DNA of 64,000 nt from Bradyrhizobium sp. CB2312 (GTDB lineage: Bacteria > Pseudomonadota > Alphaproteobacteria > Rhizobiales > Xanthobacteraceae): the NCBI RefSeq assembly GCF_029714425.1, contig NZ_CP121668.1:1-64000 (forward strand), written 5' to 3'. The position numbers and the translations under genes are program-made. Positions 2,945 through 32,378 of the stretch are shown here, piece by piece (position 1 is the first letter of the stretch; each line of letters opens with the position of its first letter). The notes below the pieces were generated by a model. It was not told the origin of the DNA and searched no databases. It was given only the letters and a program-made list of their open reading frames with translations.

Positions 2945-3280
2945 GTCATGGCCGGGCTTGACCCGGCCATCCATCCTCGCCAGCAAGCCCGGTGGAACGC
3001 TCTACATCGGCGTCACCAATAATCTGGTCAGACGCGTCTACGAACACCGCGAAGGCCTGGCAGACGGCTTCACCAAGCGTTACGGGGTGAAGACGCTGGT
3101 CTATTTTGAAGCACACGACACGATCGCCGCTGCCCTGCAGCGCGAAAAGAACATGAAGCACTGGTCGCGCGAGTGGAAGATTGATCTGATCGTCAAGAGC
3201 AATCCAGACTGGCAAGACCTATATGATGAAATTGTCCGCTAGCGCGGACGATGGATTGCCGGGTCAAGCCCGGCAATGAC
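2945..3280. mobile_element. GTCAT/ATCCA element carrying a GIY-YIG nuclease gene
   Basis: A left arm at 2945-2975 and a right arm at 3250-3280 form a 31-bp inverted repeat with only two mismatches. Each arm is itself palindromic (GGCCGGGCTTGACCCGGCC on the left, TGCCGGGTCAAGCCCGGCA on the right) and is framed by GTCAT outside and ATCCATC inside. In the other copies in this window the arms are separated by only about 20-30 bp. Here the interval holds a GIY-YIG nuclease reading frame that abuts the left arm and stops 7 bp before the right arm. The element sits in the dnaN-recF gap, 19 bp after the dnaN stop. Its mobility is inferred from structure only. Confidence 0.65.
2958..3242 (+). CDS. GIY-YIG nuclease family protein, 5' end overwritten by repeat arm
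   Basis: The product (about 90 residues) matches the small single-domain GIY-YIG (URI-type) endonuclease family: LYIGVTNNLVRRVYEHREG, then GFTKRYGVKTLVYFE, then QREKNMKHWSREWKIDLI and a C-terminal W-x-DLYDEI. Family members normally begin with a short YYVYILAS segment that supplies the first Tyr of the GIY motif. Here that segment is missing: the frame runs straight from the left palindromic arm into ILASKPGG. No ATG is available, only a TTG inside the arm at 2958. The YIG half, the Arg helix and the catalytic Glu region remain. It may be an inactivated copy, or one expressed from a non-canonical start. Confidence 0.6.
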   Translation: MTRPSILASKPGGTLYIGVTNNLVRRVYEHREGLADGFTKRYGVKTLVYFEAHDTIAAALQREKNMKHWSREWKIDLIVKSNPDWQDLYDEIVR

Positions 3281-8872: not shown

Positions 8873-8958
8873 CGTCATGCCCGGGCTTGTCCCGGGCATC
8901 CACGCTCTTCCTGCTCTGGGCAAAGGCGTGGATGGCCGGGTCAAGCCCGGCCATGACG
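8873..8958. repeat. GTCAT/ATCCA paired palindromic element (copy 3)
   Basis: Same architecture and orientation as the element after dnaA. The left arm has GCCCGGGCTTGTCCCGGGC, the right arm has GGCCGGGTCAAGCCCGGCC, and the spacer is about 25 bp. It begins 25 bp after the gyrB stop codon. The spacer sequence differs from the dnaA copy while the arms are almost identical. Confidence 0.9.
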
Positions 8959-23819: not shown

Positions 23820-23920
23820 GTCATCGCCCGGCTTGACCGGGCGATCCAGTATTCCAGAGACGGCGATGAGATACGGAGAGGCCGCGGCGTACTGGATTCC
23901 CCGCTTCCGCGGGGAATGAC
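23820..23920. repeat. GTCAT/ATCCA paired palindromic element, CGCCCGG/TCCCCGC type
   Basis: The left arm is GTCAT-CGCCCGGCTTGACCGGGCG-ATCCAGTA. The right arm is TACTGGAT-TCCCCGCTTCCGCGGGGA-ATGAC. The outer GTCAT and inner ATCCA frames are the same as in the GGCCGGG-type elements, but the palindromes within the two arms are different from them and from each other. The spacer is about 37 bp. Downstream of purC. Confidence 0.85.
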
Positions 23921-32174: not shown

Positions 32175-32260
32175 CGTCATGGCCGGGCTCGTCCCGGCCA
32201 TCCACGTCTCTCCTCGCGGTACGAAGAACGTGGATGCCCGGGACAACCCCGGGCATGACG
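32175..32260. repeat. GTCAT/ATCCA paired palindromic element (copy 4, reversed)
   Basis: Left arm GTCAT-GGCCGGGCTCGTCCCGGCC-ATCCACG, right arm CGTGGAT-GCCCGGGACAACCCCGGGC-ATGACG. The order of the two arm types is the reverse of the copies at 1444 and 8873, so this copy is in the opposite orientation. It starts 21 bp after a stop codon. Confidence 0.9.
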
Positions 32261-32292: not shown

Positions 32293-32378
32293 CGTCATTG
32301 CGAACGCAGCGAAGCAATCCAGAATCCCTCCGCGGGGACAGCCTGGATTGCTTCGTCGCTACGCTCCTCGCAATGACG
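32293..32378. repeat. GTCAT/ATCCA paired palindromic element, GCGAAGCA type
   Basis: Left arm GTCAT-TGCGAACGCAGCGAAGCA-ATCCAGAA; right arm CTGGAT-TGCTTCGTCGCTACGCTCCTCGCA-ATGACG. This arm type (TTGCGAGCGCAGCGAAGCAATCC-like, shortened) is common across alphaproteobacterial genomes. It lies only 33 bp from the previous element, making a tandem of two different subfamilies between a hydrolase gene and the convergent adenosine kinase gene. Confidence 0.88.

Follow-up and report, generated by a model that had tools for sequence, protein, structure and literature searches.

CGTC REPs, described by Di Nocera, De Gregorio and Rocco in 2013, consist of the C/T-GTC tag, an AT-led 9-bp stem, a 5-nt loop and a CCA tail, with stems of 8-9 bp and loops of 4-5 nt across the superfamily; they mostly form head-to-head dimers, occur mostly in alphaproteobacteria and include the Rickettsia RPE (PMC3733652). 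According to the same article, these repeats apparently lack a dedicated transposase, only few fortuitous associations were found for other transposase genes located among them, and GTAG-type REPs flank an enzyme gene, TnpA-REP (PMC3733652). Three COG2827 genes of Caulobacter crescentus, one of them with an SOS box, have been proposed to act in DNA repair, and no REP association of these genes is given in the accessible text (PMC1839093). None of the literature matches listed, drawn from open-access literature with subscription papers and bioRxiv mostly outside it, linked a GIY-YIG nuclease to REPs; in the accessible text of PMC12306157, GIY is absent and CGTC occurs in the reference list only.

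Here we describe a GIY-YIG nuclease gene that lies between CGTC REPs and propose, with moderate confidence, that this nuclease is the best candidate for their missing mobilising partner. CGTC REPs are widespread in alphaproteobacteria, and a subtype-matched nuclease makes the question of their mobiliser testable.

The dnaN-recF element and its relatives in the source genome

The window is the whole stretch of 64,000 nucleotides of Bradyrhizobium sp. CB2312 that was analysed. From its start, the gene order is dnaA, dnaN, the element, recF and gyrB, these gene names being assigned by reading the translations. The features of the element and the gene-less REPINs of the window are as follows.

2945-2973, plus strand: left CGTC-type REP arm (GTC, 9-bp stem, 5-nt loop, CCA), tail towards the gene; predicted hairpin of -11.7 kcal/mol, z -4.8
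2973-3242, plus strand: 5'-truncated GIY-YIG nuclease gene, its frame running from the ATC of ILASKPGG to TAG, with the start codon and first catalytic Tyr deleted
3252-3280, minus strand: right CGTC-type REP arm, inverted, tail towards the gene
1445-1528, no strand assigned: gene-less REPIN of two inward arms with a 26-bp spacer, E subtype
8874-8957, no strand assigned: gene-less REPIN, E/D subtype
23820-23920, no strand assigned: gene-less REPIN with a C-type left arm
32176-32259, no strand assigned: gene-less REPIN, E subtype
32294-32377, no strand assigned: gene-less REPIN, F subtype (GTCATTGCGA..GAAGCAATCCA)

The arms of the element (2945-3280) are inverted 34-nt sequences (2945-2978 and 3247-3280) with 91% complementarity. 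An earlier note on this DNA had given them as 31-bp arms with two differences; the inverted arrangement stands, and two mismatched positions are found when the 29-nt cores (2945-2973 and 3252-3280) are compared. Both arms have a predicted hairpin (9-bp stem, 5-nt loop) between GTC and CCA, and they carry C/T-GTC heads rather than the GTAG tag. With up to three mismatches allowed, the window contains the arm motif eight times, where shuffled sequence gives an expectation of 0, and the six occurrences outside the element form three short-spacer pairs, in agreement with the other paired elements with short spacers that had been noticed before. The label REPIN-like fits, and the repeats can be named as CGTC REPs.

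The open reading frame between the arms matches the Pfam GIY-YIG family (PF01541, E 5e-13), but the domain is not complete as the earlier note had it, since it lacks 28 bp that include the start ATG and, from the GIY motif, xVY. Nine other dnaN-recF copies (L078, L080, L082, L086, L087, L094, L098, L100 and L027) all retain the ATG and xVY; in these copies the ATG lies a few bases past the left arm and the protein starts with MTYWVYILASKPGG or nearly so. The arm-to-arm distance is 275 bp in the window copy and 303 bp in seven of the nine. Thus, the window copy is broken by a 28-bp deletion that took the start and the first catalytic Tyr. L098 is frameshifted. L027 was counted here as its locus also holds the dnaN and recF ends; its source is a draft genome, in which the other recF contig bears a different element (L093). 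At L077 (genome G002, also dnaN-recF), both arms and both gene ends are kept and the middle is lost, making it an internal-deletion derivative. The same gene without arms at this locus, in strains that lack the repeat family, had been named in advance as a refuting case; arms were present in every copy read there.

The source genome, a single contig of 9.78 Mb, holds five matches of the gene family, so that the element is not the single copy it had been taken for, and all five are flanked by CGTC-type REPs. Their arms are of type D (the window copy), A (two matches, with 51- and 50-nt arms), F and B, the F- and B-type genes each having a complete REPIN on either side. Of the A-type copies, the second (L004) is spread over two reading frames, and the B-type match stops at residue 69. 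In a 464-kb sample of the genome, composed of the window and 20 evenly spaced 20-kb stretches, 62 arms were found, of which 17 inward pairs and one outward pair had gaps of 15-70 bp; the only inward pair with a gap of 200-500 bp was the window element. D/E-type arms were the commonest named class in this sample (22 of 62). A profile search of the whole source genome for the Y1 transposase (PF01797) gave no match.

Three of the five gene-less REPINs in the window are E-type or E/D-type, and none of the five nuclease matches in the genome belongs to the E clade, which counts against the nuclease as a mobilising enzyme. As a separate observation, the E-type REPINs at 1445-1528, 8874-8957 and 32176-32259 are possibly relics of a lost partner.

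Association of the nuclease gene with CGTC REPs

In the genus sample, 70 loci were read in 31 Bradyrhizobium genomes, with weak or fragmentary matches and the two matches of G016:C710 among those left out; many of the 70 are orthologous sites and hence non-independent. Arm type, orientation and arm-gene distance were nearly constant in clades A and D: clade A arms are mostly inward and 15-20 bp from the gene, and clade D arms are inward, with the downstream arm 13 bp past the end of the match. At the B/F loci other than L003 and L005 the nearest arms mostly face outward. Among 313 arms chosen by GTCAT..ATCCA, a set in which head and tail were themselves the selection criteria, the base preceding GTC was C in 75% and T in 23%.

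Beyond the genus, 61 genomes of an order sample and 76 of a class sample were searched, of which 37 and 28, respectively, had a match; weak matches and G063:C151:75303 were left out. With the strict detector, the resulting 106 loci, which include three repeats of Bradyrhizobium loci (L106, L163 and L121), had arms on both sides in 40 cases, on one side in 30 and on neither in 36. For 80 loci in named alpha-, beta-, gamma- and deltaproteobacterial genomes, the corresponding numbers were 50, 14 and 16, compared with 2, 15 and 132 for 149 control intervals of the same size shifted by 750 bp.

Because the strict detector recognises one head and tail only, we added a motif-free test in which the 192 bp upstream were compared with the 192 bp downstream for any inverted repeat at a cut-off score of 14. 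The pool consisted of 242 mostly alphaproteobacterial loci, after 11 of 253 were dropped as too near a contig end. Strong inverted repeats directly flanked 169 of the 242 genes. When the downstream flank was exchanged for that of a different locus, 17 of 242 gave such repeats, and when the flanks compared were some 0.7-0.9 kb distant, 0 of 225 did. Two unrelated gene families served as further controls. For glyoxalase (PF00903) in 11 Bradyrhizobium genomes, both-sided arms and inverted repeats were each found at 0 of 30 loci, two loci being one-armed; for CspA (PF00313) in the order sample both were found at 0 of 29, with one one-armed locus (1 of 30 was excluded at a contig edge). The strict detector on its own was rejected as a measure: it called 77 of the 242 loci armless, yet 54 of these 77 have inverted repeats. 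Of 36 such loci that were inspected, most resemble CGTC REPs with variant ends, for example GTCGTC..CCCA, and a few (for example, L129, L132 and L184) do not. The 23 loci with neither arm nor inverted repeat, together with 30 more that are one-armed, count against the mobilising-enzyme reading.

The enrichment beside arms that the earlier note had asked to see in relatives is therefore strong, whether judged against shifted intervals, far and swapped flanks or two control families, and we regard the association of the nuclease gene with CGTC REPs as close to certain.

Six plasmid copies in named genomes were also read. On plasmid p3 of Azospirillum lipoferum 4B (L383), the only one of the six for which the detector reported arms on both sides, the gene lies between two complete REPINs. 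The Sinorhizobium meliloti copy has a CTCAT-headed REPIN 71 bp upstream, the Rhizobium tumorigenes and Photobacterium copies have arms downstream only, from about 180 bp, and the Novosphingobium and Planktothrix copies have variant palindromes on both sides that were missed by the detector.

The surroundings of two of these plasmid copies are recorded here in their own right. The REPIN-nuclease-REPIN unit of L383 is located between sufB and sufC, which belong to iron-sulfur cluster assembly. The cyanobacterial relative on plasmid p1 of Planktothrix agardhii (L388), flanked on both sides by GTCATTCTGAG..-type repeats, has an MmeI-type restriction gene as its neighbour on one side and the DISARM gene drmA on the other.

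Arm subtype, nuclease relatedness and mobility

In RAYTs, enzyme clade and repeat subtype vary together. For the nuclease, we predicted the arm type of each gene from its nearest relative in another genome, using correct-frame proteins and pooling D and E arms as one type. The input was 41 Bradyrhizobium genes with one arm type on both sides, of which 29 were in genomes with at least two types. Across these 12 genomes, 28 of 29 genes fitted the prediction (shuffled mean 12.1, maximum 25 in 20000), and 27 of 29 did so when the relative had to be at a different site (shuffled mean 11.9). The misfits were confusions of B and C; L042 has one B and one C arm. A version with hand-set clades (31 of 31) was replaced by computed nearest relatives, L020 not grouping cleanly with the B genes.

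Two other measures pointed in the same direction. At 110 of 126 loci the left and right arms belonged to one class, compared with 38 on average and 58 at most in 2000 shuffles (8 loci duplicating others were left out). On a FastTree nuclease tree, which had few columns and weak support, arm class required 14 changes over 110 rows, where shuffling gave 51.8 on average; for the 70 rows from other genera it required 12, compared with an average of 30 and a minimum of 24 after shuffling. Both counts are weaker than the within-genome test because related hosts share REP families, and it is this host REP make-up that the within-genome test removes.

REP copy number went with nuclease presence only modestly. 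The A-type REP motif was more numerous in genomes with a clade A nuclease than in those without (median 130.5 and 68; p 0.017), a modest difference uncorrected for kinship. A loose CGTC-like pattern, which takes in many non-palindromic sequences among the matches listed, was modestly denser in those genomes of the order sample that have the nuclease (16.4 versus 10.2 per Mb; p 0.008). Several results in this part of the analysis count against a mobilising enzyme: nuclease relatedness does not separate arm types B and C cleanly; arm orientation did not cluster as a clade trait outside the genus (12 changes versus 13.7); and the A-type motif was present in all 31 Bradyrhizobium genomes, including 17 without a clade A nuclease match.

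Genome G050, rich in REPs but with no nuclease match at E 1e-12, also counts against it, and such genomes fit an explanation in which an unrelated enzyme moves the REPINs and the nuclease gene is cargo, perhaps useful to the host. We judge this very improbable, as subtype-specific pairing is unexpected for cargo, the Y1 transposase is missing from the source genome by the profile search above, and only few fortuitous transposase associations of CGTC REPs were reported in the accessible part of the original description (Di Nocera et al.; PMC3733652).

Evidence on mobility came from the site of an A-type element, L002. Its flanks are collinear without any element in three genomes (G022, G007 and G005), and in G004 the site is occupied by a gene-less REPIN. 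No target-site duplication was visible at the L002 empty site, whose junction cannot be placed with single-base accuracy, and this counts against a mobilising enzyme. Around the origin, 23 REPIN units from seven genomes were put through a strict empty-site script, which yielded no empty site, and a looser listing of the origin-region REPINs showed one subtype giving way to another at given intergenic positions. Separately, unit 6 (G000:66253-66352) is B-type in G000 and D/E-type at the same intergenic place in G002, the two genomes being close relatives.

Gene-bearing and gene-less REPINs have inner bases in common: TAACCAC for A (in two of three gene-less pairs), GTATTCC for C and CGTCTT for E. 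Type D has too few gene-less REPINs for this comparison, and the B/F genes lie outside the spacer. Judged from sequence, such sharing is what would be expected of an autonomous element and of derivatives that arose from it by deletion.

The main rival to a mobilising enzyme is homing, in which gene-less REPINs of matching subtype would be cut by the nuclease and would then acquire the gene by recombination through the arms, the REPINs being a target spread by something else. GIY-YIG is a classic homing-nuclease fold, sites that have the gene in some genomes hold gene-less REPINs in others, and arm subtype tracks nuclease relatedness as target specificity would. At L003 (F type), L005 (B type) and on Azospirillum lipoferum p3, however, the gene has a complete REPIN on each side instead of occupying a REPIN spacer, and at the other B/F loci the nearest arms are mostly outward. 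Moreover, the arms offer only about 30-50 bp of homology, and the three genomes with an empty L002 site lack both the gene and a detected REPIN there. Homing is thus rather unlikely in our estimation.

The same data bear on the repair role proposed for the Caulobacter genes mentioned at the outset. If the proteins were small UvrC/Cho-like backup nucleases, REPs would have gathered beside them simply by preferring the intergenic DNA next to any accessory gene. The CspA and glyoxalase genes are unflanked, the gene-arm distances in clades A and D are nearly fixed, and an element is present or absent at an otherwise collinear site; arm type also tracks nuclease relatedness, and a repair role would leave this pairing of nuclease and arm type unexplained. 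Little probability is therefore left for this explanation.

The enzyme and the proposed system

Seven equal-length intact clade D copies had a mean dN of 0.053 and a mean dS of 0.73 (21 pairs), and the mean dN/dS of clade A was 0.075 over 23 of 36 pairs, the other pairs having saturated dS. These low values indicate strong purifying selection on the intact nucleases of both clades. The six residues expected to be catalytic from known GIY-YIG enzymes, Y6, Y17, R27, H31, E64 and N83, were invariant in 32 diverse members. The AlphaFold model of an intact clade D protein had a mean pLDDT of 94. With this predicted model, the best solved Foldseek match was the UPF0213 protein 1zg2 (E 4e-5), followed by the weaker matches Slx1 (E 7e-3) and the N-domain of UvrC (E 0.1), with probabilities of 0.90-1.00; Slx1 is an enzyme that cuts branched DNA. 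The sequence profile likewise matched 1zg2 (2e-10) and 1ywl (8e-8). The family is probably COG2827, which has Escherichia coli YhbQ as a member. An NCBIfam search matched no family, and an Rfam search returned two chance-level matches only. Among scored candidates, 7969 of 8000 passed 1e-8, and the names among the 120 matches listed were 'GIY-YIG nuclease family protein' and 'putative endonuclease'.

On balance, we read the window element as probably a decayed small mobile element, made of a GIY-YIG gene of about 95 codons between two CGTC REPs of its own subtype, with the gene-less REPINs as its non-autonomous relatives. In the mechanism that we envisage, the REP arms would extrude as a hairpin or cruciform, probably in DNA exposed by replication; the cognate nuclease would recognise this structure and cut its base near the unpaired GTC/CCA ends; and host repair might then copy or rejoin the element elsewhere, with or without the gene. 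That the nuclease cuts or moves REPs is what we infer from these patterns. GIY-YIG enzymes are not known to join DNA, which counts against the mobilising reading. Should that reading hold, enzymes of a class familiar from homing and repair would drive a mobile system like that of REPINs, and a likely role would follow for the thousands of genes that at present bear only such names as GIY-YIG nuclease or 'putative endonuclease'.

A similar layout was observed around another nuclease gene. In 11 Bradyrhizobium genomes (L389-L418), a small DUF559 (PF04480) gene lay between inverted CCCTCTCCC..GGGAGAGGG-like palindromes at 18 of 20 testable loci, two of the 22 small loci being excluded at a contig edge; the controls gave 0 of 8 for long DUF559 genes and 0 of 28 for far flanks. 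The dnaN-recF interval also holds small DUF559 genes, at L079, L088, L090, L091, L093, L097, L101, L102, L104 and L105; these were recognised by reading, with Pfam confirming L079, L102 and L105, and L090 was translated. The small DUF559 gene and its palindromes are possibly a second nuclease-palindrome system.

More tentatively, and with somewhat more doubt than belief on our part, the two systems may be put together: GIY-YIG nucleases as the missing mobilisers of CGTC REPs and small DUF559 proteins as a parallel system with CCCTCTCCC-type palindromes, so that the pairing of a nuclease with a hairpin would be a general and overlooked class of minimal bacterial mobile element that needs no recognised transposase.

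Compared with known systems, the arms of the window share tag, stem, loop, tail and dimeric arrangement with the CGTC REPs of Di Nocera et al.; no transposase gene was reported to be associated with those repeats, whereas here a nuclease gene is associated. The small GIY-YIG endonucleases of COG2827/UPF0213 (BH0048, 1zg2; EF2693, 1ywl; the UvrC-like genes of Caulobacter) have the same fold and size, but their records call them hypothetical proteins or a repair function has been considered for them, whereas the genes described here are REP-flanked. Homing endonucleases of the I-TevI type share the catalytic fold, which makes selfish-gene behaviour plausible; in contrast to them, the window copy lies between dnaN and recF rather than in an intron or coding target, has a single domain and is accompanied by subtype-matched palindromes. 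The closest likeness in organisation is with REPIN/RAYT, the GTAG REPs and TnpA-REP: in both, short palindromes occur mostly as head-to-head pairs, the enzyme gene has its own repeat subtype on either side and gene-less copies are many, and gene-less CGTC REPINs would stand to nuclease elements as RAYT-less REPINs stand to RAYTs. The enzyme there is a Y1 HUH protein and the tag is GTAG, whereas here the enzyme is GIY-YIG, the tag is C/T-GTC and the source genome has no Y1 match. The system would thus be a variant of the REPIN/RAYT kind with a new enzyme class and the CGTC tag.
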